A DNA stretch of 26,473 bases from a virus, in the IMG/VR virus record IMGVR_UViG_3300020437_000405, positions 1 through 26,473 of that record; one strand, 5' to 3'. Of this stretch, positions 1 through 26,473 are shown in pieces. Numbering within the stretch: position 1 is the stretch's first letter; every line of letters begins with the position of its first letter. Below the pieces are notes generated by a model. The model saw only the letters and a list, made by a program, of their open reading frames with translations. It was not told the origin of the DNA and did no database searches. A program made the translations under genes and the position numbers.

Positions 1-795
1 ACAAAAACAGTTGGCCTTTTAAGGTCATTTTTTTTGGATAAAGGTTTTGAAGAAGTACATACTCAAAACAGATTAAGTATATTGGCGGCTTGTGAAGATC
101 CGTTCAATGTAGCAACATACAATTATGCAGGCCAAGTCTGGCCCCTTCCCCAAACAGGCCAAATGTGGTTAGAACACGAATTACTCTCAAAGCCCGATGC
201 AAAGGGCTTTTTTTGTGTCTCCACGTCCTATAGACAAGAACCAAATGCAATTCCAGGTAGACACGATATAATCTTCCCTATGTTTGAATTTGAATTTCCA
301 GGTGGATATGATGATTTGAAAAAGATGGAATATGAATTATGTGAATACTTAGAATTCCCTAAACCAGAAGAAAGAACATATGCAGACTGGCAAAAACATT
401 TTGGTCTAGATGCAATGACAGAAATGGAAGCCGAACACGAAACTAAAATGTTTGAAGAATTCGGTGCTACAATGATTACAGACTTTCCTGAAATGACATC
501 TCCGTTCTGGAATATGAGTAGACACGAAGGTGGTGCTACAAGTAAGAAGATAGATGTTATCTTAGGAGGTATGGAAACAATAGGTTCCGCGGAACGTTCT
601 TGTGATAAAGAAATGATGCGTGATACTTTTCACACAATCACAAATGGTGAATATTCAGAATTGCTTTATAAACTATTCTCTAAAGAAAGAGTAGAGGCAG
701 AATTAGAAAAGTTCTTAGAATTCGATTTCTTCCCAAGAGTTGGTGGTGGAATCGGTATGACAAGAATGATTTCTGCTTTAGATAAAAATTCGTAA
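1..795 (+). CDS. Asparaginyl/aspartyl-type class II tRNA synthetase, C-terminal part (5' end outside window)
   Basis: The reading frame is open from base 1, so the gene begins outside the window; 264 residues are visible. It shows the class II synthetase fold in order: a motif-1-like stretch (LRSFFLDKGFEEVHT, bases 16-60), motif 2 with its ATP-binding arginine (YRQE at 229-240, then GRHD and an acidic EFEF strand), a DVILGGMETIGSAER segment that matches the GGSQRE region of AsnRS/AspRS, and motif 3 (GGGIGMTR, 742-765). The motif-3 residue before the Arg is Thr, where AsxRS usually has Asp/Glu. By family it should activate Asn (or Asp) and charge tRNA in the cytoplasm; an asparagine-synthetase-like derivative is possible. 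A tRNA with an Asn anticodon lies 12 bases downstream on the same strand, which favours AsnRS. An N-terminal anticodon-binding domain cannot be judged here. Confidence 0.75.
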   Translation, partial: TKTVGLLRSFFLDKGFEEVHTQNRLSILAACEDPFNVATYNYAGQVWPLPQTGQMWLEHELLSKPDAKGFFCVSTSYRQEPNAIPGRHDIIFPMFEFEFPGGYDDLKKMEYELCEYLEFPKPEERTYADWQKHFGLDAMTEMEAEHETKMFEEFGATMITDFPEMTSPFWNMSRHEGGATSKKIDVILGGMETIGSAERSCDKEMMRDTFHTITNGEYSELLYKLFSKERVEAELEKFLEFDFFPRVGGGIGMTRMISALDKNS

Positions 796-3991: not shown

Positions 3992-4339
3992 TTAAAATGT
4001 AATTTTTAATCCTACAGTTGACTCAGTTCTGACAAATTCTGTATCAAAGTCATTCTTTATATACAAAGTTGCTTGGTCAGATAATGAATGACTAAAGTTC
4101 AACATTGTTTTGTTCAGAGCAATAAAATCTTGACCTGATTTGTCAATGTCCCATAACCCACCTGCTGAAATATCAATTCCTGCCAATGATTTAGTTCCCA
4201 TTAGTTCGCCAGTGTTTGCATTGGCTTCTGTTTGTCTCTCAAGAGTTAATGCCCAAGAGATATCGTTTGTTTCTTCTGCCACTACGGCACCAGAAAAGAA
4301 GACTGCTACTAGCAGTCCGATTATGCTTATTTTTTTCAT
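3992..4339 (-). CDS. Small exported protein with signal peptide, possible outer-membrane protein
   Basis: 115 residues. The N-terminus is a classic Sec signal peptide: KK, then the hydrophobic IIGLLVAVFFSGA, then VVA with probable cleavage before EE (residue 22). The mature part is short, without Cys, with alternating polar/hydrophobic stretches (LYIKNDFDTEF, STVGLKITF). It ends in Phe, as outer-membrane beta-barrel proteins do, though about 94 residues is small for a barrel; a barrel fragment or oligomer is conceivable. It has a strong ribosome binding site (AAGGAGG, 5-base spacing), a perfect promoter and a 5' hairpin, so high early expression is expected. Altering the infected cell's surface or blocking superinfection is a plausible role, but that is inference. 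Confidence 0.75.
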   Translation of the reverse strand: MKKISIIGLLVAVFFSGAVVAEETNDISWALTLERQTEANANTGELMGTKSLAGIDISAGGLWDIDKSGQDFIALNKTMLNFSHSLSDQATLYIKNDFDTEFVRTESTVGLKITF

Positions 4340-4352
4340 AAGTTCCTCCTTA

Positions 4353-4376
4353 TCGCTTGTTTAAAGTACCAAGCGA
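4353..4376 (-). promoter_or_regulatory. 5'-terminal mRNA hairpin of the exported-protein gene
   Basis: TCGCTTG (4376-4370 on the minus strand) pairs with CAAGCGA (4359-4353), 7 bp with a 10-base loop. It lies at the expected transcript start and just before the ribosome binding site, a position typical of mRNA-stabilising 5' hairpins. Confidence 0.6.
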
Positions 4377-4380
4377 GTTG

Positions 4381-4409
4381 ATTATAGCATAGGTTGTATT
4401 TGATGTCAA
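4381..4409 (-). promoter_or_regulatory. Perfect sigma-70 consensus promoter
   Basis: Minus-strand TTGACA (4409-4404), a 17-base spacer and TATAAT (4386-4381): all twelve consensus bases match. It drives the exported-protein gene 3992-4339, and the -35 box overlaps the 3' end of the preceding gene. Confidence 0.88.
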
Positions 4410-4663
4410 ATCAAAATGTCTATTGATTTTCCGTCGGGTATCTGCGATATTTTATTTACAAATTTTCCATTCCTATCGTAGATTTCAAGTAGAGCCTCCT
4501 GTACTCTATCTTGTCTTTCATTGTATGCCTTTAAGGCATCGTTTGAAACTTGTTTGATTTTATTGTGGTACTCTATTGTCCTCTGTTTATTTATATAATA
4601 TTCGTGTAAACGTTCTTGTTGTATAATCATATTAAGATTATGATTTGTTATGCTAGAAGTCAT
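4406..4663 (-). CDS. Small phage protein of unknown function, helical
   Basis: 85 residues from the ATG at 4663, chosen over 4675 because only the former has a GGA-type site in front. I recognise no domain. The middle (IIQQERLHEYY to QVSNDALKAYNERQDRVQEALL) is charged and probably a long helix or coiled coil; no membrane segment or Cys. It overlaps the end of the upstream gene by 11 bases, in a chain of five overlapping small genes (5486 down to 4406). Confidence 0.6.
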   Translation of the reverse strand: MTSSITNHNLNMIIQQERLHEYYINKQRTIEYHNKIKQVSNDALKAYNERQDRVQEALLEIYDRNGKFVNKISQIPDGKSIDILI

Positions 4664-4838
4664 ATTCAATTCCATTTATAGTATAGGTTTTTCCATTGAA
4701 ACCTTTATCCATCTTTTCTTTATCAGTAAGTTTATCACCATCTATTCTTTGTCTGTGATTAAACTTCTTTTTAATTTCTTTCTTTTCTTCTTGCTTTTCT
4801 TCTTTCTTAAAAATCTTAAAAATATTACCCACTGACAT
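4653..4838 (-). CDS. Small lysine-rich phage protein of unknown function
   Basis: 61 residues from the ATG at 4838, which has GGAG five bases upstream; a longer in-frame start at 4865 has no such site. The N-terminus (MSVGNIFKIFKK) is amphipathic, followed by a very Lys/Glu-rich block and a C-terminal KTYTINGIEYDF that looks like a beta hairpin. No family recognised. It overlaps both neighbours. Confidence 0.6.
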   Translation of the reverse strand: MSVGNIFKIFKKEEKQEEKKEIKKKFNHRQRIDGDKLTDKEKMDKGFNGKTYTINGIEYDF

Positions 4839-5052
4839 AAGGACTCCCATCTTTAAATTTTGCATAAAAGTTTTTTTGTGCGTGTAATCTACCTAACACT
4901 TCTTGTATCTCAATCATTTCTTGTTTTAATTGTGGAGAAGTTTCGCCTTGTGCTATAGCCATTCCCCTACGTCCTGCTTTGGCTCGTAGTGCGTGTTCAA
5001 TGATTTCTACATCACGTATTGATAACTTAAATGTCGTATTAGGTTTCGTCAT
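4825..5052 (-). CDS. Conserved small phage protein
   Basis: 75 residues from the ATG at 5052, preceded by GGTGG; the ATG at 5064 sits too close to its AGGA. The pattern FKLSIRDVEIIEHALR, then a helical QEMIEIQEVLGRLHAQKNFY, resembles short proteins I recall from marine T4-like phages, with no assigned function. It is helical, without Cys or membrane segment. It overlaps the genes on both sides, as part of one translational chain. Confidence 0.65.
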   Translation of the reverse strand: MTKPNTTFKLSIRDVEIIEHALRAKAGRRGMAIAQGETSPQLKQEMIEIQEVLGRLHAQKNFYAKFKDGSPYVSG

Positions 5053-5296
5053 TTTGGCCACCATTATCCTGTATCATTTTCTTCTCCATTTCTTCTCTGA
5101 TATCTAATACTTTTTCTTCTGAGATGATTTTGATTATTGTTTCTGTAAGGTCTTTTTCTCTACGTAGCCAGTAGAGTTTTTCTTCGATTGCTTTTAGTTC
5201 TCTTTCGTAATATGCTATTTCTTTTTCTTTGCGTTTGCTTTGGTCTAAAAATTCTGATAGCAATATAAGTCTTGGTGTTTTATCATTCTTTTCCAA
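5039..5296 (-). CDS. Conserved small coiled-coil phage protein
   Basis: 85 residues. The segment KRKEKEIAYYERELKAIEEKLYWLRREKDLTETIIKII is split here as KRKEKEIAYYEREL and KAIEEKLYWLRREKD and reads as a continuous coiled coil; an EEKVLDI-type segment follows. Similar short proteins occur in marine T4-like phages, often next to the preceding family, as here. No enzymatic motif. It overlaps the upstream gene by 14 bases and the downstream reading frame by about 14. Confidence 0.62.
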   Translation of the reverse strand: MEKNDKTPRLILLSEFLDQSKRKEKEIAYYERELKAIEEKLYWLRREKDLTETIIKIISEEKVLDIREEMEKKMIQDNGGQNDET

Positions 5297-5486
5297 TTAG
5301 GGCCTCGTATGCTTCTTCAAATCCTTCTTCGTAAATATCTAAACACCCTGATTCATTATTCCATAATCTTCTAAAATATGAATCGTGCATTTTGATTATT
5401 TCTTCTTCGCTCCAAATATGACACCCTAAATGGCCCTTTACGAGCCAAAAGAGTCTGTATGCTTCTTTCCTGAATTCGTCAGTCAT
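5283..5486 (-). CDS. Small phage protein of unknown function, 67 aa
   Basis: 67 residues, acidic, rich in aromatics (FRKEAYRLFWLVKGHLGC, YFRRLWNNESGC, YEEGFEEAYEAL). Two Cys and several His are present but form no recognisable metal site. No family recognised. It starts the chain of overlapping small genes running to 4406; the next gene upstream (5515-5676) is separated by 28 bases. Confidence 0.6.
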   Translation of the reverse strand: MTDEFRKEAYRLFWLVKGHLGCHIWSEEEIIKMHDSYFRRLWNNESGCLDIYEEGFEEAYEALIGKE

Positions 5487-5514
5487 CAGGGTGCCATTAT
5501 CCCTTAGTTAGTGT

Positions 5515-5741: not shown

Positions 5742-6641
5742 TTAAACTACGTAGTTTTCTAATAATTTTGCTAGTTCTATGTGCGATTCTCTTGAATAAT
5801 GACCGTCTGGCCTACCTTCATCATCTAAGTATGGTGATAAATGTACTCTATCTTTTGGTCTTTTGTCTATACCTTTTTCTAGTGCTTTTTTGTTTAAGTA
5901 TTCTTCTATTGTGTTACATCCTGTTTTTGCTCTTAACTTTTTCAAATTCAGATAGTTTATAATTGTGATATCATTATCGATGTTGTCCATATATGATTCA
6001 AAATCACCTGTGATACTTCCTATATATTCACTTGCTACAAACCCTATACCATCTCCAAATTTATATCTGTGTCTGTGTTTTCTTAATCTATAATCTGTTA
6101 TATCGTATGCACTAAAAACAAAATTTTTTAATTTTTTTAGATAAAAATAATCTTGTAATTTTCTTTTAAATAAAAAATAATCATAGTGTAAAGTTATATC
6201 GTTTTTAATAATAGTATAATAGTCATCTAAAAATTTTCTGTTATCATTAAATGGTCCAAAATTATATCCAAAAGATTGTGACCTATATGTTTTCATTCTT
6301 TTATCATAATCAAAATAAGAACCTCTCTGAGGATCTCCTATACTGAATAAAACAAATATATTTTCATTGGGATTTAAATCTACATATCTTCTCATAATAT
6401 GATATAACCAGTCATTTGATATTCCTGGACTACCAAGATTTACTGTCTTTTTAAAATATTTTGATAGAAAATGAGTATAGCAATTATTATTACAATTCTC
6501 TACCCAAGTTTTTCTACCTCTAAAATTATGAAGATGTCCATTTATTGGATCTTCTTTATTATGAGGTGGAACAGTTCCTTGACCGAAAGTAAAACTATCG
6601 CCTAAACTAAGTAAAGTGTATTCTTTGAGATTAATTGTCAT
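5742..6641 (-). CDS. SGNH/GDSL-type hydrolase
   Basis: 299 residues. Block I with the catalytic Ser is LLSLGDSFTFGQG (residues 11-23). NLGSPGISNDW (about 68-78) supplies the Gly and Asn of blocks II/III, and a C-terminal DGHYSRESH (about 279-287) holds the Asp-x-His pair of block V. These enzymes are esterases, often deacetylating or deacylating sugars. Related proteins occur in marine T4-like phages. No signal peptide, so it acts in the cell or in the virion. The ATG overlaps the end of the deformylase gene by 11 bases. The local region is unusually AT-rich and rich in Tyr, Asp, Asn and Lys. Substrate unknown; glycan modification is inference. Confidence 0.8.
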   Translation of the reverse strand: MTINLKEYTLLSLGDSFTFGQGTVPPHNKEDPINGHLHNFRGRKTWVENCNNNCYTHFLSKYFKKTVNLGSPGISNDWLYHIMRRYVDLNPNENIFVLFSIGDPQRGSYFDYDKRMKTYRSQSFGYNFGPFNDNRKFLDDYYTIIKNDITLHYDYFLFKRKLQDYFYLKKLKNFVFSAYDITDYRLRKHRHRYKFGDGIGFVASEYIGSITGDFESYMDNIDNDITIINYLNLKKLRAKTGCNTIEEYLNKKALEKGIDKRPKDRVHLSPYLDDEGRPDGHYSRESHIELAKLLENYVV

Positions 6642-7155
6642 TCTGAGTATGAGCCTGTAGATTCTTTATTTTTTCTCTACGTAATGCATTCGCTTTTTGC
6701 CATACACTTGTTTTAACTCTTTTGTCAAAAGTCATACCATCTAAATGGTCTGTTTCGTGTTGTACTGCTTGTGCCCAAACTCCTGTGAATAATCTAGTAT
6801 CTGTTTCGCCTTTTAGATTAGTAAATGTACAATGTACTTCATTAAATCTTTCTACTTGCATTTCTAAGTGAGGAAAACTTAAACAACCTTCTTGAAACAA
6901 TTCTAATTTTGCAGTTTGTGTTCTTTCCCAACTTGGATTTATACATACAACATAACCTGTACTTTCGTGTCCTATAACAAATATTCTTTCCATTACACCA
7001 AGTTGTGGTGCCGCCAATCCAATACCATCGTGCTTTTTCATAACCATAATCATATTATAAACTAGGTCTTCTGTATTTTTTGTTATTTTATGTTTATTGT
7101 GGACTATAGTTCTTAGTCTTTTGTCATCTTCTGGTATAAGTTCATATTTCATCAT
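6631..7155 (-). CDS. def: Peptide deformylase
   Basis: 174 residues with all three deformylase motifs: GIGLAAPQLG (44-53), EGCLSFP with metal-ligand Cys91 (89-95), and QHETDHLDG with His133, Glu134 and His137 (132-140). It removes the formyl group from new proteins' N-terminal Met, using Fe(II). Unlike the short phage enzymes described from cyanophages, this one keeps about 30 residues after motif 3, including a helix (VWQKANALRREKIKNL). It lies 8 bases downstream of sufE. A TATAAATA late-promoter motif (7168-7161) overlaps the sufE stop and ends only 5 bases before this ATG (two consecutive ATGs), so a late transcript starting there would be nearly leaderless. Confidence 0.95.
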   Translation of the reverse strand: MMKYELIPEDDKRLRTIVHNKHKITKNTEDLVYNMIMVMKKHDGIGLAAPQLGVMERIFVIGHESTGYVVCINPSWERTQTAKLELFQEGCLSFPHLEMQVERFNEVHCTFTNLKGETDTRLFTGVWAQAVQHETDHLDGMTFDKRVKTSVWQKANALRREKIKNLQAHTQNDN

Positions 7156-7867: not shown

Positions 7868-7973
7868 CTAATTGTTTTCTTTCATATTCAAATGCTTTAG
7901 ATAATATAACCCAAAACACTATTGTCACGACCATTCCGCATCCTAACAATCCTAATCCTGATATTATTGTCAT
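7830..7973 (-). CDS. Small membrane protein, 47 aa
   Basis: Read directly: ATG at 7973 overlaps the epimerase stop as ATGA, a strong sign of coupled translation; stop at 7832-7830. The protein is MTIISGLGLLGCGMVVTIVF and onward: one membrane helix (about residues 3-24), then a charged tail KAFEYERKQLDERSVQKIRRED. The tail codons overlap the start of the next gene by 38 bases in another frame, which is long for a phage overlap, so either this ORF or that start could be off. Confidence 0.5.
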   Translation of the reverse strand: MTIISGLGLLGCGMVVTIVFWVILSKAFEYERKQLDERSVQKIRRED

Positions 7974-8881
7974 TTTAGTATTTCTTTAAATGTTGCTCTT
8001 ATTCCTTCTTTTTGATTTACTTCGGGTGCCCAACCTAAAAGTTTTCTTGCCTTTGATATATCTGCTAAAGTATCGATAGCATATCCTCTTGGTTGATTCA
8101 AGTTTACTGTTTTCACATCTGGTTTAAATTCTCTGATAATATCTACTACTTCATTTACAGATATATTTTCACCACTACCAAGATTAAAGATTTCATTCTT
8201 TACTTTTGATTCTAAACTTGTGATAATCCCAGAAACTACATCATTCACGTGTATATAATCTCTCTTAAAGTGACCATCACCGTGTATAGTTAATGCTTTA
8301 TCTTCTTTAGCAAGTCTGGCAAACTTACCAATCATTAGACCGCCCTCATTATCACTTGGTTGATTTACTGAGTAAACTGTAAAGAAACGCAAGATATTAT
8401 AATTCAAATCAAACATATTCTTATATTGTTTACAAAGATGTTCACCAAATAATTTTGTCATTGCATAATAGTTTAATGGATCAGGTTTATGATATGGTTT
8501 ATGTGGAGTAGGATTATTTCCATACACTGAACTACTACTTGCAAAAATAAATTTAGATACACCAACTGCCGATGCGGCTGTTAGTATATTTCTTGTACCA
8601 ACAACATTATCGTCAAAGTATGCATCTGGATTAACGAAACTTTCTGGTATACGAGGTTTACCGCCAAGATGAACTACGTAATCTTGATTGGCACAAGCCA
8701 TCACGCATCTTGCGGCGTTTTGTAAATCACCTTGTATGTATCTTACGCCTTTGTTAAATAACTGATAATCTTTTTTATCAAGTACAGTAACACCGTAACC
8801 AAATTCTAATAACTGATTAACTAACTCGACACCTATATATCCTGCGCCTCCAGTTACTAAAACGTTACCTTTTAATTTCAT
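7970..8881 (-). CDS. NAD-dependent sugar-nucleotide epimerase/dehydratase (extended SDR)
   Basis: 303 residues. The Rossmann motif is VLVTGGAGYIGVELV (residues 8-22) with Asp35 after the second strand (VTVLDKK) favouring NAD. SSSVYG is followed by the catalytic YYAMTK (Tyr-x3-Lys), and RFFTVYSVNQPSDNEGG matches the family's substrate-side RY.NVYGP region. Members convert UDP- or dTDP-sugars (4-epimerases, 4,6-dehydratases). In phages they usually feed lipopolysaccharide or capsule changes or glycosylation of phage parts; a glycosyltransferase gene lies at 10695-11516. The gene overlaps the thioesterase gene upstream by 17 bases and the 47-aa gene downstream by 4. The exact sugar cannot be told. 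Confidence 0.88.
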   Translation of the reverse strand: MKLKGNVLVTGGAGYIGVELVNQLLEFGYGVTVLDKKDYQLFNKGVRYIQGDLQNAARCVMACANQDYVVHLGGKPRIPESFVNPDAYFDDNVVGTRNILTAASAVGVSKFIFASSSSVYGNNPTPHKPYHKPDPLNYYAMTKLFGEHLCKQYKNMFDLNYNILRFFTVYSVNQPSDNEGGLMIGKFARLAKEDKALTIHGDGHFKRDYIHVNDVVSGIITSLESKVKNEIFNLGSGENISVNEVVDIIREFKPDVKTVNLNQPRGYAIDTLADISKARKLLGWAPEVNQKEGIRATFKEILK

Positions 8882-9274: not shown

Positions 9275-9565
9275 TTAATCAAATTTAGGTACTGGAGGGG
9301 TGTATGCTGAAGGCATTGCTAATTCACCAGGTTGAAATAAGAAAACTTCTCTTTTTTCTGCTAAGAATTTTCTAGCATCTGCATTCATCAAATTTAGTCT
9401 ATTCTCGTTGATAAGAATTGTTTGAAAATTCAACCATTCGTGCCAAGCATCTGCCGAGATATTCTCTAATATTCTTTTTCCTTCCTCTCCTGGAAAGGGT
9501 GCTTTATCAAGTGCAGGCATTTCTTTTCCGTACTTTGCACATTTGACTACTTTGAATTCTGACAT
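9275..9565 (-). CDS. yggX: YggX-like Fe(II)-trafficking / Fe-S protecting protein
   Basis: 96 residues. The core matches YggX closely: a Cys near the start (Cys9, E. coli Cys7), PFPGEEGKRILENISADAW (E. coli YPGELGKRIYNEISKEAW), W..FQTILINENRLNLMNADARKFL (E. coli W..[22 protein letters not shown]), and FLF. Family length is about 90. YggX supports repair and protection of oxidant-labile iron-sulfur clusters and possibly iron delivery, in the cytoplasm. A good site AAGGAG precedes the ATG. It is the second gene behind the 9735-9763 promoter, in the same run as sufE, so iron-sulfur genes are probably expressed together. Acquisition from a host is likely. Confidence 0.92.
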   Translation of the reverse strand: MSEFKVVKCAKYGKEMPALDKAPFPGEEGKRILENISADAWHEWLNFQTILINENRLNLMNADARKFLAEKREVFLFQPGELAMPSAYTPPVPKFD

Positions 9566-9574
9566 ATTTTCTCC

Positions 9575-9712
9575 TTAGTAACTAGCCATTATTACAAAAA
9601 CAATGAAACCAATAAACCCTGCTATCAAAATATGATTACCTAAATTCAACCAACTTGAGTTGATAGCATTAGTTTTATCTTTTGGATCTATTATTTTTTG
9701 TTTCCAATTCAT
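9575..9712 (-). CDS. Small membrane protein, 45 aa
   Basis: 45 residues from the ATG at 9712, which has TAGGAG seven bases upstream; the longer in-frame start at 9763 lies inside the promoter and is rejected. N-terminal MNWKQKIIDPKDKTNAINSS is followed by one membrane helix (ILIAGFIGFIVFVIMA) ending SY. No family recognised. It is the first gene after the promoter at 9735-9763. Confidence 0.65.
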   Translation of the reverse strand: MNWKQKIIDPKDKTNAINSSWLNLGNHILIAGFIGFIVFVIMASY

Positions 9713-9734
9713 ATATTCTCCTACTGTTCTATCT

Positions 9735-9763
9735 ATAATATCATATTCGAAAGACAAAATCAA
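9735..9763 (-). promoter_or_regulatory. Sigma-70-type promoter for the yggX-sufE-def run
   Basis: Minus-strand TTGATT (9763-9758), a 17-base spacer and TATTAT (9740-9735). The expected start near 9728 leaves a 16-base leader before the 45-aa gene. No other clear sigma-70 promoter is seen until 5742, so it may serve about nine genes. Confidence 0.6.
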
Positions 9764-9878
9764 TAGTTAATTTAGGTATGTTCTATCGTTATACATTGTA
9801 TGACTTAGCCTTGCATTTTCCACATACCGGGATTGTCGAAAAAAGACAGTATTTCTGACGTTTTTCAGTCATATTTAG

Positions 9879-9886
9879 TATAAATA
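9879..9886 (+). promoter_or_regulatory. T4-late promoter TATAAATA for the plus-strand cassette
   Basis: Exact TATAAATA on the plus strand, about 155 bases upstream of the first cassette gene. It is the only such motif that I find placed for plus-strand transcription in the window. Confidence 0.65.
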
Positions 9887-9892
9887 AAAGTG

Positions 9893-10036
9893 GACGCAAT
9901 TTGCTAAACTTCTCCAAAGTTTACATTGTGTTGGCGACAGGGAAAGACCGTGGCATAACCCATGCCTTACAAGAGCGGCGCCGGGAGAGACCGGGGTATT
10001 GCTATCCTTAAGCATCTACATTTTAGAGAACGGAGT
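9893..10036 (+). ncRNA. Structured 5' leader of the plus-strand cassette
   Basis: About 145 non-coding bases with several hairpins: AAACTT/AAGTTT (around 9904-9922), GGCAT-AACCC-ATGCC (around 9951-9965) and CCGG-GAGAGA-CCGG (around 9986-9999), plus a GC-rich GAGCGGCGCC block in otherwise AT-rich DNA. It ends at the GGAG ribosome site of the first gene. It may be a riboswitch or protein-binding leader; I could not match it to the glycine, glutamine, SAM, fluoride or guanidine classes I know. Confidence 0.45.
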
Positions 10037-10041
10037 TAAGA

Positions 10042-10212
10042 ATGGTAACGAATTTTTTCGATGCCCTACTAAACTTCTTTATGGATAACCATAAGGTTAG
10101 CCACAGGGAGTATATGGTCTGGGCAAAAACAGAATATAAAAAAGATTGGAAATATGCTTACGAGCAAATGTGCTTAACAGGTAAAGCACCAACATACTAT
10201 AAAGAAAACTAA
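10042..10212 (+). CDS. Small phage protein, 56 aa
   Basis: Read directly: ATG after CGGAGTTAAG, stop TAA at 10210-10212. The protein starts MVTNFFDALLNFFMDNHKVS and continues with REYMVWAKTEYKKDWKYAYE, ending APTYYKEN. It is helical and rich in aromatic and basic residues, without membrane segment. No family recognised. First gene of the plus-strand cassette, 14 bases before the next. Confidence 0.65.
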   Translation: MVTNFFDALLNFFMDNHKVSHREYMVWAKTEYKKDWKYAYEQMCLTGKAPTYYKEN

Positions 10213-10226
10213 TAGGAGAACTAATA

Positions 10227-10388
10227 ATGAACTTTATTAAAAAATTATTTACGTTTAAATGGGGTTGGGAAAGAAAAGACCCTATTGAAGTATATCTATC
10301 TAATTCAGTAGATTTGGTTGATTTAGAACAGAGACAAAAAAGAATTACTTACGGAACAATTAACCCAAATCTGAGAGGGTGGGTTTAA
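10227..10388 (+). CDS. Small phage protein, 53 aa (DUF3563-like)
   Basis: Read directly: ATG at 10227 with AGGAG eight bases upstream. The segment EVYLSNSVDLVDLEQRQKRI has the YL..AvDL.DLE.R pattern of the short DUF3563 family of proteobacteria and their phages, whose function is unknown. N-terminus MNFIKKLFTFKWGW is basic and aromatic. Ends 3 bases before the next start. Confidence 0.7.
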   Translation: MNFIKKLFTFKWGWERKDPIEVYLSNSVDLVDLEQRQKRITYGTINPNLRGWV

Positions 10389-10391
10389 TTT

Positions 10392-10514
10392 ATGTATAAA
10401 AGACTTGTATCGTGGTTTGAACATATTGGCCGTATGAGAGCGGCAAGTGAATTAGCAAGACAAGGCTATCACAAAGAAGCCAAACATTTAATGTGTGGCA
10501 AGGAGGTTGCCTAA
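10392..10514 (+). CDS. Small phage protein, 40 aa
   Basis: Read directly: ATG at 10392, stop at 10512-10514. The sequence MYKRLVSWFEHIGRMRAASE and LARQGYHKEAKHLMCGKEVA is a basic helical peptide. Its RAASELARQGYHKEAKHL part resembles short proteins and DUF1127-like ends in alphaproteobacteria (R..LA.lG). No separate strong binding site; it follows the DUF3563-like gene by 3 bases, so translational coupling is likely. Confidence 0.6.
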   Translation: MYKRLVSWFEHIGRMRAASELARQGYHKEAKHLMCGKEVA

Positions 10515-10641
10515 GTTCGTCAGAATTTTGGCAGTCTTTTTAACGACAACTATTTTAATTTCAGATGATGTCGGTAGAGGCATCCTCGATAAAAAAAGTA
10601 AACGAAAAGAGGAAGTGAATTATGTGGCCTTACACAGATGA
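10507..10641 (+). CDS. Possible very small protein with hydrophobic N-terminus
   Basis: A 44-codon frame from TTG at 10507 (or GTG at 10495) to TGA at 10639-10641. The product would read PKFVRILAVFLTTTILISDD then a charged tail KKSKRKEEVNY. The hydrophobic stretch looks like a signal or membrane helix. AAGGAGG directly abuts the TTG, which is too close for normal initiation, and the frame overlaps both neighbours, so this is tentative. Confidence 0.3.
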   Translation: MPKFVRILAVFLTTTILISDDVGRGILDKKSKRKEEVNYVALHR

Positions 10642-11571: not shown

Positions 11572-12264
11572 TTATTTTGGATCGTAAGTTTTCGTATTTG
11601 CTTGAATCCATTGTCTAGCAACACGTTTTGTTGGCGGTTGAACTAAGAATTTATCAATCGCTCTATCTACTTTAGCAAAGTTCTTTTGTCTATTTGGATC
11701 TTCTAGTCCACCTGAGTTATCAACAACATAGAAGTTTGGAGCACCAAACATTTGTTGAAATTTCATAATATTGTCTTGTACCTGTTTCCACATATCTTTT
11801 ACCATATCTTCTGGTACACTTCTATCTCTTTTCTCATTTCTTTGTAATGCAACATCTAAACTAGTATTAACAAAAAGCATCATACTATCATAACCTAGAT
11901 TTTCAAGACGTTCTTTAATCTTACCAATTTTCATAACATCTTTACCAGTGCCATCAATAACAACACCAAGTTTTCCGTCTAAGAAAATATCTTTTCTTTT
12001 AATTGTAAGAGTTTTTGCTTTTTCTCGTCTTTCTTGTCCTGCATCACTGCCAACATTATCTGGAGTCATTTCGATACCGTCTTTGTTCATAATAAGTTCA
12101 AAGACTTGGTCTGAGTTTACCATTTTTAAACCAGTACCTTTAAGCATTTTATCAGCAACAAATGACTTGCCAGAACCAGGTCCGCCTGCCATAAACACTG
12201 CTTTAAAAATGTGAGGGTCGTTTATACCTTCTTCTACTGATTTAATGATTTCTTCTACACGCAT
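11572..12264 (-). CDS. P-loop kinase, zeta-toxin-like fold
   Basis: 230 residues. Walker A is AGGPGSGKSF (26-35), with the MVNSDQVFE strand (about 49-57) and GVVIDGTGKD (Walker-B-like) after it. An EKRDRSVPEDMVKDMWKQVQ region holds lid-type arginines. This layout matches the zeta-toxin/AAA_33 kinases that phosphorylate nucleotides or UDP-sugars; homologs are common beside structural genes of T4-like marine phages. No antitoxin-like partner lies next to it, so a toxin-antitoxin role is not supported. Late-type motif at 12282-12289. The substrate is unknown. Confidence 0.8.
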   Translation of the reverse strand: MRVEEIIKSVEEGINDPHIFKAVFMAGGPGSGKSFVADKMLKGTGLKMVNSDQVFELIMNKDGIEMTPDNVGSDAGQERREKAKTLTIKRKDIFLDGKLGVVIDGTGKDVMKIGKIKERLENLGYDSMMLFVNTSLDVALQRNEKRDRSVPEDMVKDMWKQVQDNIMKFQQMFGAPNFYVVDNSGGLEDPNRQKNFAKVDRAIDKFLVQPPTKRVARQWIQANTKTYDPK

Positions 12265-14673: not shown

Positions 14674-16110
14674 TTATCCCACTGAGCCTTCAAGTGTTAC
14701 TTCTAATAACTTATTAGCCTCAACTGCGAATTCCATAGGTAATCTTTGGATAACATCTTTTACAAAGCCATTAACAATTAAGTTAGTTGCTTGTTCTTCA
14801 TCTAAACCACGACTTCTACAATAAAATATCATTGCATCTGATACTCTTGACGTTGTTGCCTCGTGATTTATAGATGCTCCAGCACCTTCGTTTTCTATGT
14901 AAGGTATTGTAATGGCCGCACATTTATCGCCAATTAACATACTATCACATTGTGTAAAATTTGTAGATTTACTATTACCTGCTCGTCTATTTAATTTGAC
15001 TTTTCCTCTATATGTTTGTTTGCCATATTTTGCAGAAATGCCTTTTGATATTATTGTTGAAGATGTATTTTTACCCAAGTGTATCATTTTAGTACCTGTA
15101 TCAGCCTGTTGTCTTCCAGTTGATATTGCTACACTATAAAATTCTCCTTGAGACTCATCACCTTTTAATATACAACTTGGATACTTCCAAGTCAATGCAG
15201 ATCCTGTTTCAACTTGAGTCCAAGTTACTCTACTTTTGTATCCTTTACACATTGCTCTTTTAGTAACAAAATTGTAAACTCCACCTTTTCCTGTTTCAGG
15301 ATCACCTGGATACCAATTTTGTACAGTTGAATATTTTACTTCCGCTCTATCTTTTGCTACAATTTCAACACAGGCCGCGTGTAATTGATTTTCATCTCTA
15401 GCAGGTGCAGTACATCCTTCAAGATATGATACATAACTATCGTCTTCTGCAACAATTAATGTTCTTTCAAACTGTCCTGTGTTTGCTTGATTAATTCTAA
15501 AATATGTTGAAAGTTCCATTGGACATCTTACGCCTTTTGGAATATAACAAAAAGATCCATCTGTAAATACTGCTGAATTTAAACAAGCAAAATAATTATC
15601 AGTAATTGGTATTACTGAACCAAGATATTTTTTTACTAACTCAGGATGTTCTTGTACTGCCTCACCAAATGAGCAAAATATAATACCTTGCTTTGATAAT
15701 TCTTCTTTAAATGTTGTTGCAACTGAAACACTATCAAATACGGCATCTACAGCCACACCTGCCAAAGCCGCTTGTTCTTGTGTTGGTATACCTAATTTTT
15801 CAAATGTTGCTAATACTTCTGGATCAACTTCATCTATAGAATTAAGTTTAGGCTTTGGTGTAGAATAATATGATATAGCCTGATAATCTATTGGTTCAAT
15901 ATCTAATTCAGACCATTTAGGTTCTTCCATTTTAAGCCATCTATTATATGCCTTAAGTCTCCAGTCTAATAACCACTGTGGTTCTTTTTTAAACTGTGAT
16001 ATTTTTGTTACCACATCTTCGTTTAACCCAGGTGGTAATGTATAGGCTTCGACTTCTGTAACAAAACCTTGTTCATATCTTTTTTCTAAATGTTTATCTA
16101 TTGCTTCCAT
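14674..16110 (-). CDS. sufB: SufB, iron-sulfur cluster scaffold subunit
   Basis: 478 residues, full length (E. coli 495). Recognisable SufB blocks: [28 protein letters not shown] with the conserved Cys, then QLHAACVE; a TVQNWYPGD region; and [11 protein letters not shown] with Cys397 (E. coli C405, the sulfur-accepting site) followed by HEATTSR (His416-Glu417) and the [10 protein letters not shown]...EGSVG end. So the active-site residues are intact. SufB with SufC and SufD builds Fe-S clusters, taking sulfur from SufS-SufE; a SufE is encoded at 7164-7559. It sits between tail-type genes rather than with other suf genes, has a late-type motif just upstream and no clear ribosome binding site. 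SufC and SufD are not in the window. Host-derived auxiliary gene. Confidence 0.97.
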
Positions 16111-16563: not shown

Positions 16564-17655
16564 TTACATTGTCCATCGTTTAACAGTATAACTTATTTCT
16601 GTAGTAAAACCTGCATCTTGTGTATAATTAAATTTAACATTATCACCATCAATCGCTGATGTAAATTCTATATTAGAAAATTCATCTACATCTGCCGTAT
16701 TGTTTGTATTGATGTCTTGCCAAATTTCAGTATTATCATCTGTAAGTTTAACTTGAGTTATACCTTGAGGGACTCCGTTGATAACTTTGATTGTTCCTAC
16801 ACGAACAAAAGTAGCCGTAGTACCTACTTGCTTTAAAGAATAATCAATAAAGAAAGTAGTACATATATTTTTATCATATGATAAAAACGTTCCAGTAGTC
16901 CCAGATAATTCTTTTTTATATAGACTTGAACGTAAACCTGTAGATGTATCTAATGATTGAAGATGTTGGTCTGTAAACATTTGATTAAATGTATTTTCTG
17001 TTACTACTTCTACGTTCTTTCTTGCTCTACCAAATAAACTTGCTATAAATTCATTTGTACCACTTACACTTATTGCTTTTACAGGTTCTATAGTTCCTGT
17101 TGTCGTAGTGTCAAAGTAATATTCATCTTCATCTGATACAGTTTCACTATAAAAACCTGATGGTGCATATTCTGATTGTTCTGAGACTTTTGCCGTAACT
17201 GTTGTTGTGTTATTTACTGTGTCGATTGTTGAAGTTAGAATTTCGCCTTCAGCAAATTTTTCCCAAGTTTGATTTGGTGCAGGTGTTGCCTCTTTATATT
17301 GACAAAGTGTTTCACCTAAATTAAAATTTACTTGTCCATCAAAAACTAGTGTTTGAGTAAAATAGTGCATTGCACCTAATACTGCATTTATATCTGTTAC
17401 ATTTCTAATTACAAGGTCTTCGTCTACTGTTAATCCAGGTTCTGGATTATCGGCTGAATTTAACCAAGATTGAATTACTGCTTGTGCGTTTGCAAACGGG
17501 TCAAATTGAATTTCGTTAACTGCATCATCAATACCTACAAACAATTGGTTAGTATCATTTGTAAATCCTAACTCTCCTGTTTCTAGTGTATCTGCACTTA
17601 CGTCTTTTCTTAAACCACGTCTTAGTAAAATTTTAACATTATTAGTTGTGGACAT
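16564..17655 (-). CDS. Tail-fibre-like protein with Mtd-type N-terminus
   Basis: 363 residues. The first 40 (VKILLRRGLRKDVSADTLET, then GELGFTNDTNQLFVG) match the N-terminal repeat of major-tropism-determinant-like fibres (I.lRRGt......l..GElgy..dt..lfiG), which joins many phage fibres to the baseplate. The remainder is Thr/Asn/Val-rich beta sequence without Cys-rich or enzymatic motifs. It should be a tail-fibre or receptor-binding protein. It has AGGAG six bases before the ATG and a late motif at 17679-17686. No variable repeat or reverse transcriptase is seen in the window, so a diversity-generating system is not supported. Confidence 0.78.
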   Translation of the reverse strand: MSTTNNVKILLRRGLRKDVSADTLETGELGFTNDTNQLFVGIDDAVNEIQFDPFANAQAVIQSWLNSADNPEPGLTVDEDLVIRNVTDINAVLGAMHYFTQTLVFDGQVNFNLGETLCQYKEATPAPNQTWEKFAEGEILTSTIDTVNNTTTVTAKVSEQSEYAPSGFYSETVSDEDEYYFDTTTTGTIEPVKAISVSGTNEFIASLFGRARKNVEVVTENTFNQMFTDQHLQSLDTSTGLRSSLYKKELSGTTGTFLSYDKNICTTFFIDYSLKQVGTTATFVRVGTIKVINGVPQGITQVKLTDDNTEIWQDINTNNTADVDEFSNIEFTSAIDGDNVKFNYTQDAGFTTEISYTVKRWTM

Positions 17656-23352: not shown

Positions 23353-24117
23353 TTATTTACCACGATTTTGGTATTTATTTCCTAATGTACGACCTGTTTG
23401 ATATGTAGTCTTACCTAGAGCCTTACCTGCTTTACGGGCACCGTATATAACAGCCGCGGCCGCCGCCGTTTTAGTTATTGGATTGTTCCAAATGCTCTTT
23501 TTAGTATCTTTTTCATCGTTAACTATGTAGTTTCCACGTTTTTGAAACGATTTTAGAGCAGGCATTAGTTCACTACGCATTGCTTTTGCACGTGTATATT
23601 GCATCATTCTTGTAGTAACTAGTGCTTTTTGATTTTGATTTAGATTATCCCAATCTGCTACCAATCTTCTCATAGACCTTAACATACTATCTTGTATATT
23701 TAAGTCACGTTGAAATCTTAATAACATTCTTTGTTCAAATCCTGCGTCTGATTTACTTGAACCAATATGATTTAGATATCTTAGTACGTCTTGTCTTTTT
23801 ATATTGATACGACTAATTGCAATCTTATCTCTTTCGTCATCTAAATCTTGTTGTTTACCCATCATACGATTTAGTGTTGCATATAAATCTGTACCACTCA
23901 TTCTAAAGTAATCAAAATTACGATATTGCATTGTTCTATTAGCATAATCTTTTGCCAATGGAGCAAATTCATAATCTTTATTAAACATATTTAAAATCAT
24001 AAAATATGCAAATGTTAATTCTGCCGCATCATCTACGTTTAACTTACTTTGATTTTGTCTTGTTCTGAATAATCTGCTTTCAGTTAAATCAGGTATTAAT
24101 TTTAATTTACTTTCCAT
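23353..24117 (-). CDS. Phage protein of unknown function, 254 aa
   Basis: 254 residues, largely helical and basic. N-terminal LIPDLTESRLFRTRQNQSKL, then AAELTFAYFMILNMF, YANRTMQYRNFDYFRMSGTD and a long Arg-rich helical section (QRMLLRFQRDLNIQDSMLRS). Near the C-terminus an Ala-rich short hydrophobic stretch (TKTAAAAAVIYGARKAGKAL) could touch a membrane. No family recognised. It overlaps the gene upstream by 11 bases. Possibly a virion-internal protein, by composition. Confidence 0.65.
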   Translation of the reverse strand: MESKLKLIPDLTESRLFRTRQNQSKLNVDDAAELTFAYFMILNMFNKDYEFAPLAKDYANRTMQYRNFDYFRMSGTDLYATLNRMMGKQQDLDDERDKIAISRINIKRQDVLRYLNHIGSSKSDAGFEQRMLLRFQRDLNIQDSMLRSMRRLVADWDNLNQNQKALVTTRMMQYTRAKAMRSELMPALKSFQKRGNYIVNDEKDTKKSIWNNPITKTAAAAAVIYGARKAGKALGKTTYQTGRTLGNKYQNRGK

Positions 24118-24322
24118 TTTTCATCTCTTTTAAACGTTCCGCAATATCTAAAATTTTATCACTTGCATATGTTTTACAACATCTTGGAGCCACTGCGTGA
24201 ACAACTAAAGCCGCAGTTGCAACCTGAAGTTCGAATGCAATTCCTAATGCGAAACGGGCGTGTTCAAACGGACCCATTCCTGATTCTTTTAGATGTGCTT
24301 TGCATTCTTTACTTAACATCAT
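24107..24322 (-). CDS. Small membrane protein, DUF6356-like
   Basis: 71 residues from the ATG at 24322, with AAAGGA five bases upstream overlapping the stop of the preceding gene; the longer frame from 24349 is rejected. LSKECKAHLKESGMGPFEHA is followed by RFALGIAFELQVATAALVVH (one or two membrane helices), then AVAPRCCKTYASDKILDI. The pattern H..E....Y..H..FAl.........a...H...P....TtASd.I is, as I recall it, that of DUF6356 proteins from marine alphaproteobacteria and phages. Function unknown. Confidence 0.65.
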   Translation of the reverse strand: MMLSKECKAHLKESGMGPFEHARFALGIAFELQVATAALVVHAVAPRCCKTYASDKILDIAERLKEMKNGK

Positions 24323-24323
24323 A

Positions 24324-25667
24324 TTAATCCTTTGCAAAGTTGGCCGCACTGAATTCTAATCTATCGACTATTTTCATTGCTCTGCCTATTTGATCCACAA
24401 TTACGAAACCTTCAGGGTCTGTTACTTTAAAAGAACCGTCTGGTTGCTCTATAAAACTATCTATTGCTTTTATGTTCTTCATTTTTCTCTGAAACATCAT
24501 CTTAACTGCCTCAGATTTTAAATATGCACGATACATATCAGCAATATTTTTCTTATTGTTATTTATAATTTGTTCAACTTCTGCTTTAGCCTGTAATTTA
24601 GCCTGACCTGCTTTTCCTTCAGGTCCTGTTTTTAATTTTGCTACTGCATCGTCAAATTTATTTTGTAATTTTACTAAAAAGTCATTTGCAAATTTATCTG
24701 CATCTTGTTCTAATGCTTGTCCATTTCTAATTGGTAAGTTTGCGTGTGCTTTTATTTCGTGAACTAGTTCTAGTCCACCAATCTTCTGATTAATTGCTTT
24801 GAAAGTATCTTCATCAACTGACATTGCACTTAATTCTTTTATCGCTGAACGTATCTTTGCACTATTTTCTTTTGATAACTGTACTTGACCAGATACGTCT
24901 TTAATTCTTGCATCTGTAAACCAAACTTTTGATGATGGTCTTAGTTCACTTGCATCAAATCCAAATTTTGCTTTCATTTCTTCCATACTATTGCCTTCAT
25001 AACTTGTATGGAATACAATACCTAACTCTGCCGCCATCATTGCTTTAGCAGTATCACTATCAGCAGGTACAACATAACTAATTGTATTTGGTTTAAATGC
25101 AATATGTGGTTTACCTTCAATATTAACTTGTTTTAAATCACCCTTAGTGAATAATAAATCACCTTGTAATACATTTGCAATACCTAAGTCTTTTAAATGT
25201 TCTAATGATGCATTTAATTTACTACGTAACCCTGCTTTACTTACAGGCTCATCATTCTTAGTTGTATCAGGATGATTTGTTTCAATATCTTCTGGAGATT
25301 TGTTTAATTTTGCCTTCTGAGCAAATACACCTTTAGTACCTACAAAGAATTTTCCATCTTCTGGATCTGTGCCAGCAAATACAGCCGGAGCACCATCCCA
25401 TTTAGTAGTAATTGCATCACCACCGCCTTGTCCATCAAGTGTATTTAAAAGAGTTGAGAAAGAATTTACAATACGTTTTATACCTTCATTGCCTTGTATA
25501 AACACAAGTTCTTCTGCGTGGTCTAAATGTGTATTCTTATCTTCTGAGATTTCATTATCTAAAAGATTTTTCATCTTTTTGTGAAAGCCTACTTGTTTTA
25601 AACGTGGCTTTCTTGGACCTCTAAATCTACGTTCTCTACCTTTACCTATAATATCTCTTATCTTCAT
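24324..25667 (-). CDS. KxDG-motif nucleotidyltransferase/ligase-like protein (DUF6267-like)
   Basis: 447 residues. Around residue 89, TTKWDGAPAVFAG gives the KxDG motif I of covalent nucleotidyltransferases (DNA/RNA ligases, capping enzymes), with Lys89 as candidate nucleophile. A GKFFVGTKGVF strand follows at about 105-115, then NVLQGDLLFTKG, which could be motif III, and HIAFKPNTISYVVP and GIVFHTSYEG. A helical region (about 280-400) may be an added domain. Proteins of this sort are widespread in T4-like marine phages and carry no established activity (DUF6267, from memory). The N-terminus is very basic. It overlaps the 73-aa gene upstream by 4 bases (ATGA). Confidence 0.7.
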   Translation of the reverse strand: MKIRDIIGKGRERRFRGPRKPRLKQVGFHKKMKNLLDNEISEDKNTHLDHAEELVFIQGNEGIKRIVNSFSTLLNTLDGQGGGDAITTKWDGAPAVFAGTDPEDGKFFVGTKGVFAQKAKLNKSPEDIETNHPDTTKNDEPVSKAGLRSKLNASLEHLKDLGIANVLQGDLLFTKGDLKQVNIEGKPHIAFKPNTISYVVPADSDTAKAMMAAELGIVFHTSYEGNSMEEMKAKFGFDASELRPSSKVWFTDARIKDVSGQVQLSKENSAKIRSAIKELSAMSVDEDTFKAINQKIGGLELVHEIKAHANLPIRNGQALEQDADKFANDFLVKLQNKFDDAVAKLKTGPEGKAGQAKLQAKAEVEQIINNNKKNIADMYRAYLKSEAVKMMFQRKMKNIKAIDSFIEQPDGSFKVTDPEGFVIVDQIGRAMKIVDRLEFSAANFAKD

Positions 25668-25885
25668 TTATTTCCTCCAAAAGGAGTTTCACCAGTTAAA
25701 TGTGGCTTTGCAAACCAAAGTCTAAACCATTCATCTGTTCCTGGTTGAATGTTATGTTTCTTTTGAAGTTTTGATTTCTCTGTACCTGTATAAGAAATAT
25801 TTTCTTGAGCAGGTTCTTTTGGAGCATATGGTTTATATATGCCTGCAAGTTTTCTTAGATTGTCTAATTGTTGCTCTAGTGTCAT
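25664..25885 (-). CDS. Small phage protein, 73 aa
   Basis: 73 residues: MTLEQQLDNLRKLAGIYKPY, KEPAQENISYTG, KLQKKHNIQPGTDEWFRLWF, ending HLTGETPFGGNK. The GTDEWFRLWFAKPHLTGE end is aromatic and looks conserved; KLAG in the N-terminus is common in short phage peptides. No function known. It overlaps both neighbours by 4 bases (ATGA), so all three are translationally coupled. Confidence 0.65.
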   Translation of the reverse strand: MTLEQQLDNLRKLAGIYKPYAPKEPAQENISYTGTEKSKLQKKHNIQPGTDEWFRLWFAKPHLTGETPFGGNK

Positions 25886-26133
25886 TTCTTATTCGCCTTG
25901 GCTGAATTGATCCCACGTTTGAACTTTCTAGGATCGCCAGAGCGAATACTATTGACTAATCGTTTTGTTAAGTCAGATGCCGTTTCTTCATCAAACTCTC
26001 GATTTATAAATTCGATAAGATTGATTGCTCCAGAAATCAAGTTCTCGCCTTTTTGTTCTACGAATCTTTCTCTTTCATTTGAATATGCTAAAGAGTTTAA
26101 TTCTTCAAAAAGACTTTTACGTGGTTTACTCAT
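25882..26133 (-). CDS. Small helical phage protein, 83 aa
   Basis: 83 residues from the ATG at 26133, which has CGGAG seven bases upstream; the frame from 26163 lies within the late motif. MSKPRKSLFEELNSLAYSNE, LISGAINLIEFINREFDEET and ASDLTKRLVNSIRSGDPRKF form helices; the tail is Lys-rich. Similar short proteins are, as I recall, conserved in marine T4-like phages without function. Confidence 0.65.
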   Translation of the reverse strand: MSKPRKSLFEELNSLAYSNERERFVEQKGENLISGAINLIEFINREFDEETASDLTKRLVNSIRSGDPRKFKRGINSAKANKK

Positions 26134-26153
26134 TGATAATCTCCGTTCTTCTG

Positions 26154-26161
26154 TATTTATC
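26154..26161 (-). promoter_or_regulatory. T4-late-type promoter motif (GATAAATA)
   Basis: GATAAATACAG on the minus strand, 20 bases before the ATG at 26133, next to the helicase stop. Confidence 0.6.
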
Positions 26162-26165
26162 AATT

Positions 26166-26473
26166 TTACTCAAGAAATGAACGTGATTTGGATCTGACCA
26201 TATCTCTTAAATTCTGTGCGGCGTCTGTTTTTTCTTGTTTTTCTTCGGTTTCTTCATTGACAACTGTTTTCTTTTTCAATGTATCCATTATATTTAATGC
26301 ACTTGAAATTTGTTGACCATCGCCATCATCGTGTCCGTCAACATCATCTTCGATTTTTAGACTATCTCTATCAAATGATAATGTAATTTTAGACCCTACA
26401 CCACTAGATGAACGTGTTTTAAGAAGTTGTAACTGATAATGTCCACGTTCCCGCATCTGTTGACTTGTAAAGA
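26166..26473 (-). CDS. Replicative helicase (gp41/DnaB-like), C-terminal end (5' part outside window)
   Basis: The frame is open to the right edge (codons reading LTSQQ before the first Met), so only about 102 C-terminal residues are visible. MRERGHYQLQLLKTRSSSGV and GSKITLSFDRDSLKIED resemble the last strand pair of DnaB-family helicases, where a basic (arginine-finger-like) K.R...G..v.l.fd....i pattern closes the RecA fold. The tail is acidic and variable (DDVDGHDDGDGQQIS). In T4-like phages gp41 unwinds DNA at the fork. No Walker motif is in view, so the call rests on the C-terminus alone. Confidence 0.55.
   Translation of the reverse strand, partial: FTSQQMRERGHYQLQLLKTRSSSGVGSKITLSFDRDSLKIEDDVDGHDDGDGQQISSALNIMDTLKKKTVVNEETEEKQEKTDAAQNLRDMVRSKSRSFLE

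Follow-up and report, generated by a model that had tools for sequence, protein, structure and literature searches.

DNA ligases, RNA ligases and mRNA capping enzymes make up the covalent nucleotidyltransferase superfamily. The phage protein family DUF6267 (PF19782, phrog_455, T4-GC71), to which the protein described here belongs and to which the catalogues give no function, is very probably a further member, as judged from its invariant motifs and its predicted fold. Its closest described counterpart in structure is the nick-sealing RNA ligase of Naegleria gruberi (PDB 5cot, 6vt series), the top structural match of both our models. The two would share a lysine nucleophile in the same fold, but they are only about 10% identical, and we know of no helical insert in the Naegleria enzyme comparable to the one that DUF6267 carries between motifs IIIa and IV. 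T4 Rnl1 (gp63) resembles DUF6267 in motif I (T-K-x-D-G), in motif IV (E-G-[FY]-V) and in the 13-residue spacing between motifs IV and V, whereas DUF6267 has no match to PF09511, lacks the second lysine of motif V and gives no significant hhalign alignment with Rnl1. T4 RNA ligase 2 and TbREL1 (PF09414) have the same core fold (Z about 7), but DUF6267 does not match PF09414.

A second group of described systems concerns the phage head. The T4 internal head proteins IPI-IPIII and Alt bear an N-terminal targeting peptide with L/I-x-E, like many leaders of DUF6267 proteins. Their mature parts are unrelated to DUF6267, which is a candidate for packaging. According to PMC9026906, the T4 protease gp21 cleaves after L/I-X-E, and a stretch of ten IPIII residues is enough for head targeting. 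Alt is an enzyme that uses nucleotides and is delivered together with the DNA (PMC9503650).

A DUF6267 gene and its family in phages

The window, by which we mean the whole stretch of DNA analysed, is a virus record of 26.5 kb. At 24324-25667, on the minus strand, an ORF with an ATG start encodes 447 aa and is a genuine gene. GGAGG stands just 5' of this ATG, and the start codon overlaps the stop of the preceding ORF by 4 nt. The protein, a predicted covalent nucleotidyltransferase by its fold, matches PF19782 over nearly its full length (E 1.1e-91, 308 bits vs a curated cut-off of 27) and phrog_455 with E 4.1e-85. DUF6267 was the sole Pfam family matched at E up to 1, and NCBIfam returned only a spurious AdeR match far under its cut-off. 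PHROGs labels phrog_455 as of unknown function, the Pfam label likewise assigns none, and annotated cyanophage genomes list the gene as a hypothetical protein of the "T4-GC 71" cluster. We found no mention of DUF6267, PF19782 or T4-GC 71 in the open-access literature, a search with most subscription papers outside its scope, nor, in the portions of that literature available, a description of the family as a nucleotidyltransferase. The initial annotation had called the gene a possible unrecognised nucleotidyltransferase with a KWDG motif; for the libraries used, "unrecognised" holds.

By tblastn, DUF6267 occurs in 465 of 50,697 phage records. Names with Synechococcus, Prochlorococcus or Cyanophage account for 450 of them, and the remainder include phages of Pelagibacter, Methylophilales, Vibrio, Pseudoalteromonas and Stenotrophomonas.

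The end of the window holds the C-terminal end of a gp41/DnaB-type replicative helicase (26166..26471, minus strand; tblastn to phage DnaB-like helicases, first 40 aa). Between it and DUF6267 lies a gene for a 93-aa protein (25882..26163, minus strand) that matches phrog_11854 (E 5e-17), a family labelled virion structural protein. A contig that we call L001 encodes a protein 100% identical to the DUF6267 protein of the window, and there the gene follows a complete copy of the DnaB/gp41-type helicase (4102-5502; DnaB_C 2.4e-18). Upstream of this helicase, L001 (376-3647) carries genes for a primase-type protein (Toprim_2, DNAG_N), a Clp protease and a PRPP synthetase (PF13793, 1.1e-52).

Several other genes of the window were recognised. 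A DUF6356 protein (24107-24349, minus strand) is encoded directly 3' of DUF6267 and overlaps its end. A SufB/SufD core-domain protein (14674-16110, minus strand; PF01458, E 3e-74) is a phage-encoded iron-sulphur cluster assembly protein. There are also a class II aminoacyl-tRNA synthetase-like domain of 253 aa (34-795, plus strand; PF00152, E 4e-14) and, all on the minus strand, a peptide deformylase (6631-7155; PF01327, E 3e-35), a nucleotide-sugar epimerase (7970-8881; PF01370), an FkbM methyltransferase (1263-1982; PF05050) and a weak match, 3.5e-5 and below cut-off, to Mtd_N, the N-terminal domain of the major tropism determinant (16564-17655).

Invariant residues follow the order of the ligase motifs

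Conservation was measured on 264 distinct trimmed sequences derived from 347 ORFs among the matches listed; 31 of the loci come from genome contigs, with titles mostly of metagenome bins, and were taken as probable phage contigs. Motif names and residue roles are those in use for ligases. The three stretches that had first drawn attention to the protein are present in its translation: TTKWDGAPA at residues 87-95 with K89, GKFFVGTKGVF at 105-115 and LQGDLLFTKG at 167-176.

Motif I corresponds to K89-W-D91 (25395..25403, minus strand) within T-K-W-D-G-A-P, and the invariance of K89 makes it the predicted nucleophile. K89, D91, G92, P94, K112 and D170 are each found in 264 of 264 distinct homologues among the matches listed, so that the likeness to motif I is more than chance. 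The initial annotation had likened the three stretches, in this order, to motifs I and III. Of the last two, only LQGDLLF is the motif III equivalent, Q168-G-D170 (25158..25166, minus strand), on a modelled strand at 166-174; an Asp stands where Glu is usual, and the Gly before D170 is replaced by Ala in 70 of 264 rows among the matches listed. GKFFVGTKGVF forms a strand (107-110) followed by the invariant K112 and is not motif III. The segment F191-x-P-N-x-I-x-Y198 (25074..25097, minus strand) is motif IIIa-like, an assignment made from position alone; its P193, N194 and Y198 are again present in 264 of 264 distinct homologues among the matches listed. H220-T221 is also invariant in these homologues, among the matches listed.

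Toward the C-terminus, E419-G-F-V422 (24402..24413, minus strand) is assigned as motif IV from its invariance and its register with IEGYV of a T4-Rnl1-type sequence. K432 (24372..24374, minus strand), 13 residues past E419, is taken as the motif V lysine and falls on the first Lys of the Rnl1-type F-K-I-K. Among the matches listed, 258 rows extend this far, and every one of them has E419, G420, V422 and K432; the other 6 are gapped here. The spacing from the motif IV Glu to the motif V Lys is 13 residues in the window protein and in the T4-Rnl1-type sequence, and 11 in the short form of the family. Motif V of the window protein reads K432-I-V-D-R, so that the first Lys is invariant and the second Lys of the Rnl1 K-I-K is absent. 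The invariant points thus follow one another as motifs I, III, IIIa, IV and V do. Conservation of Lys89 and Asp91, and the existence of a Glu in motif IV and of a Lys in motif V, had been named as the checks to make, and the counts above bear out all four.

It could be argued that DUF6267 is a catalytically dead fold, serving as a structural or nucleic-acid-binding head protein, given its possible head targeting and a neighbour whose PHROG family is labelled virion structural. We consider this very improbable, since a dead enzyme would need none of the putative catalytic residues and none of them varies in the 258 to 264 rows that cover it among the matches listed.

The predicted fold is that of covalent nucleotidyltransferases

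The AlphaFold model of the window protein has a pLDDT of 84.4 and a pTM of 0.80. In a Foldseek search this long model retrieved mostly unrelated, chiefly helical proteins (CorA, Rad50); ligases took ranks 6, 25, 27 and 33 among the best 50. Since the search was swamped by such proteins, a short natural form was modelled, of 303 aa and identical to that of cyanophage Syn30 (pLDDT 90.2, pTM 0.86). With the short model, Foldseek ranks 1-22 are all ligases or capping enzymes by title, each with a weak E-value of at least 0.1; E-values against the PDB exceed 0.001 throughout for both models.

VIA-align against the PDB placed covalent nucleotidyltransferases in 41 of the best 50 rows for the long model, the other 9 being DnaK chains matched over about 70 residues of helices, and in 50 of the best 50 rows for the short model. 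The Naegleria RNA ligase leads the best 50 rows of the long model (Z 8.9, 3.6 A over 183 residues), with TbREL1 (Z 7.5, 5.0 A over 199), T4 Rnl1 (Z 7.5, 3.8 A over 167) and T4 Rnl2 (Z 7.1, 4.0 A over 177) also present. For the short model the Naegleria enzyme (Z 8.6, 3.8 A over 175 residues) and T4 Rnl1 (Z 8.2, 3.5 A over 155 residues) are best called tied, with TbREL1 at 7.0, Rnl2 at 6.7 and DNA ligases at 6.1 or less among the best 50 rows. By the tool's own note, a Z of 8-9 barely exceeds the values of models that have no clear match. The argument for the superfamily is therefore built on the uniform lists of the short form together with the invariant motifs, the Z-values by themselves being modest. 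The nucleotidyltransferase core, sought by structure prediction and by comparison with T4 Rnl1 and Rnl2, is present in both models.

The most conspicuous part is a helical insert, at about residues 266-396 (24480..24872, minus strand) from its modelled secondary structure, which is shorter in the 303-aa forms. The "extra helical domain" of the initial annotation is this insert, which separates the motif IIIa region from motif IV and is not an appended domain.

Relation to known ligase families

The window protein has no profile match to PF09511, PF09414, PF01068 or PF01653 in Pfam, and because none of those profiles matches we do not class DUF6267 as Rnl1, Rnl2, NAD+-dependent or ATP-dependent DNA ligase. 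Searches of PDB sequences by phmmer with the window protein and by hmmsearch with a 40-row profile gave no relevant match. With hhalign, DUF6267 against alignments of Rnl2, Rnl1 and DNA ligase was not significant, with a probability of 1.9% or less. Of ten comparisons, the one with Rnl1 scored highest for each of the two DUF6267 alignments (25.2 and 25.4), and the runners-up at 20.8 and 23.3 were neighbour-gene controls. hhalign itself set E419 and K432 on the IEGYV and FKIK of the Rnl1-type row, within that same non-significant alignment (1.9%). Among known ligases, Rnl1 against Rnl2 reached 16.9% and Rnl2 against DNA ligase just 0.2%; as the latter is a known pair, this test has little power.

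The ligase content of 17 phage records picked for carrying DUF6267, with T4 as a control, was surveyed for the four families. PF01068, the ATP-dependent DNA ligase, is found in 3 of the 17 (S-CRM01, DLP6 and G007), and PF01653, PF09414 and PF09511 in none, while the T4 control has three of the four families. In 14 of the 17 records DUF6267 is thus the sole recognised gene of the ligase fold within the four families tested. Seven of the 17 are IMG/VR records and possibly incomplete; of the ten that have names, 8 show none of the four families. A missing DNA ligase was considered as the chief explanation of the family and dropped, as three of the 17 records have both DUF6267 and a DNA ligase.

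These data bear on the proposal that, in marine T4-like phages without T4 gene 30, DUF6267 serves as the DNA ligase of replication or repair. The gene follows the gp41-type helicase at a distance of a few genes in L001, S-PM2, S-SM1, P-HM1, S-CRM01, HTVC008M and Melnitz, and 14 of 17 records are without PF01068 or PF01653, as this proposal would have it. However, the PF01068 ligase of S-CRM01, DLP6 and G007 coexists with DUF6267, the fold scores of the short model prefer RNA ligases (best Z 8.6 vs 6.1), and a head-targeting leader would be odd on a replication enzyme. We regard this role as improbable.

Linkage to a HIGH nucleotidyltransferase and a P-loop kinase

Clustering of 1,383 neighbouring ORFs, of which 146 were chosen and 97 scanned with Pfam, gave 10 families among the matches listed, led by DnaB_C, Radical_SAM and a KaiC-type ATPase (3 members each), then AAA_25 and CTP_transf_like (2 each). 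Partner genes were surveyed in 18 phage records, the 17 chosen for DUF6267 plus T4. A match to CTP_transf_like, the HIGH nucleotidyltransferase, with E of 0.001 or less is present in 17 of 17 DUF6267 records and absent from T4. It exceeds the curated cut-off in 16, with that of S-CRM01, annotated as a cytidyltransferase, below; in record G001 it is the HIGH copy near DUF6267 that falls below the curated cut-off. The two genes are at most 7 kb apart or fused in 15 of 17 records, against a mean of 1.9 records and a maximum of 9 in 20,000 trials of random placement; they are farther apart in G003 (57 kb) and G007 (30 kb). The 17 records are not independent, because the phages are related.

In S-PM2 record LN828717 HIGH and DUF6267 form one protein of 591 aa, and in the older S-PM2 record (H100) the same match is split in two pieces under two annotated genes. 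The PHROG 455 profile covers both domains, and a 599-aa "cytidyltransferase-like domain" protein of an uncultured phage also matches the model. NMN/NaMN adenylyltransferases come closest to the HIGH domain (TIGR00482, 8e-8, far below equivalog cut-offs; PDB 1kam, 0.0012), and T4-GC190 is the cyanophage version of its gene. No HIGH gene was found in the DNA of the window or in the 51 closest loci (L001-L051), so that the linkage is observed for the family and not in the sequence available for this phage. The short DUF6267 genes of L246, L251, L254, L283, L261 and L292 stop at NW*, and the next bases still read NEK(V) as in their relatives; this early stop probably reflects overlap of the next gene, the cytidylyltransferase, with the end of DUF6267.

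The window does contain a P-loop kinase (Zeta-toxin, AAA_33 or PNK-like) at 11572..12264 on the minus strand (PF06414, 4e-14; PF13671, 4e-12). Related kinases occur in 9 of 360 loci among the matches listed and in 4 of the 18 records, in three of these four within 7 kb of DUF6267 and in Melnitz 51 kb off. HTVC008M gp129, a homologue 41% identical to the window kinase, neighbours DUF6267. In G001 (9349-10599) a HIGH nucleotidyltransferase and a P-loop kinase share one frame of 760 aa, which recalls the NadR arrangement.

These partners raise the possibility that DUF6267 is a nucleotidylating enzyme other than a ligase. It would share a pathway with the HIGH enzyme and the kinase, and its NMP would go to a protein or a small molecule, by AMPylation, capping-like chemistry or cofactor chemistry. 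In one version NAD+ would be the AMP donor, and the HIGH enzyme would turn the freed NMN back into NAD+. The kinship of the HIGH enzyme with nicotinate/nicotinamide-nucleotide adenylyltransferases and its closeness in 15 of 17 records fit this idea, as do the kinase near DUF6267 in some phages, joined to HIGH in the G001 frame, and the PRPP synthetase upstream in L001. On the other side, RNA ligases are the closest folds, the NAD+-ligase family gives no match, the HIGH enzyme lies far below the equivalog cut-offs and the window has no HIGH gene that we could find. We think such a reaction rather unlikely, and favour, with some reserve, polynucleotide end-joining or end-activation as the reaction of DUF6267.

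A conserved L/I-x-E site in the N-terminal leader

The first 42 residues of the window protein form a basic leader (25542..25667, minus strand), with a pLDDT below 50 at residues 1-3 and 8-41. Its last three residues, I40-S41-E42, are a candidate site for the prohead protease, and the conserved K44-N-x-H comes shortly after them. For the family, 4 ORFs lacking the H-x-x-H anchor were set aside, as were 8 that have no ATG within 70 codons; 335 leaders among the matches listed were reduced to 69 whose first 40 aa are less than 80% identical, 61 of them of at least 8 aa and 8 shorter. [LI]xE is present in 51 of the 61 non-redundant leaders of at least 8 aa among the matches listed, against 17.0 +/- 3.2 in composition shuffles, which reached at most 28 in 2,000. 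In 39 of the 61, again among the matches listed, the gap from Glu to anchor is 1 or 4 residues. Seven of the 10 leaders without [LI]xE belong to short cyanophage forms, for which the start codon is not firmly placed (the S-SM1 record annotates the longer form). These short forms start at or near MPNKHLEH, without an L/I-x-E leader; outside them, most members among the matches listed have one. Of the 8 leaderless members, 7 are not short MPNKHLEH-type forms, among the matches listed.

Many DUF6267 leaders resemble MKFTEYLTEATKEGKN or MKFTQFLTEAKEGKN, close to the MKTYQEFIAEA start of T4 ipII and ipIII. A strict MKxFxxFLxE-like start of about 10 residues was found in 18 of 41 representatives vs 33 of 913 other ORFs of the same loci (Fisher p 4.5e-14), a value that is descriptive only because the pattern was chosen post hoc, having been written after the leaders had been inspected. 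The window leader, long and basic, falls outside this strict pattern. Some neighbour proteins of other families also bear a targeting-like leader. An unknown gene just upstream of DUF6267 (L358 3929-4987, L359 3920-5005) has such a leader too (MLSFTGYSNLSEA, MQGFKTFLSEA). T4-GC190 of S-SM1 starts MKKFSAFLNEA, and this "citidylyltransferase" was detected in purified S-SM1 virions according to PMC3037559. In the accessible parts of the virion literature T4-GC190 is named among virion proteins and T4-GC71 (DUF6267) is not.

The leader tests speak for a conserved site and not for packaging as such, as shuffles leave shared ancestry in. We find it moderately likely that the leader-bearing forms are packaged in the head. 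A possibility to which we give less weight is that the leader is a conserved N-terminal arm and that the protein works solely in the infected cell. This would agree with the lack of a leader in the short cyanophage forms and in 7 further members among the matches listed, and with the 42-aa leader of the window, longer and more basic than those of T4; the ancestry left in by shuffling and the strict pattern set after viewing the leaders weigh in the same direction. It accords less well with a pattern that is the same as in T4 ipII and ipIII, with a gap between Glu and anchor of 1 or 4 in 39 of 61 leaders among the matches listed, or with the sharing of the pattern by some neighbours of other families, T4-GC190, with such a start, having been found in virions.

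Discussion

Our results suggest that DUF6267 is, in all likelihood, a new family of covalent (lysyl-NMP) nucleotidyltransferases, probably joining or activating RNA or DNA ends and often packaged in the phage head. In the mechanism that we propose, K89 would attack the alpha-phosphate of a nucleotide donor, our guess being ATP as the most likely one, and form a K89-NMP adduct, while D91, D170, E419 and K432 would hold the nucleotide and the metal. The NMP would then be handed to an acceptor, which we suppose to be a 5'-phosphate end, most likely of RNA (or DNA), and this end would thereby be activated or joined. Binding of the acceptor may fall to the helical insert. Forms with an L/I-x-E leader could be targeted to the prohead, where a gp21-type protease would cut the leader off, and the packaged protein would enter the next host cell along with the DNA.

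It is tempting, if tentative, to propose that marine T4-like phages carry a head-packaged kit composed of DUF6267, the NMNAT-like HIGH enzyme and sometimes the P-loop kinase. Targeted in the T4 style and injected, such a kit might repair or modify nucleic-acid ends, or rewire NAD+ or nucleotide use, early in infection.

In summary, if the assignment of DUF6267 is true, a family present in 465 of 50,697 phage records gains a testable catalytic mechanism. If the protein is packaged, a covalent nucleotidyltransferase would join the set of enzymes that phage heads are believed to deliver, and DUF6267 would give context to the "citidylyltransferase" of cyanophage virions.
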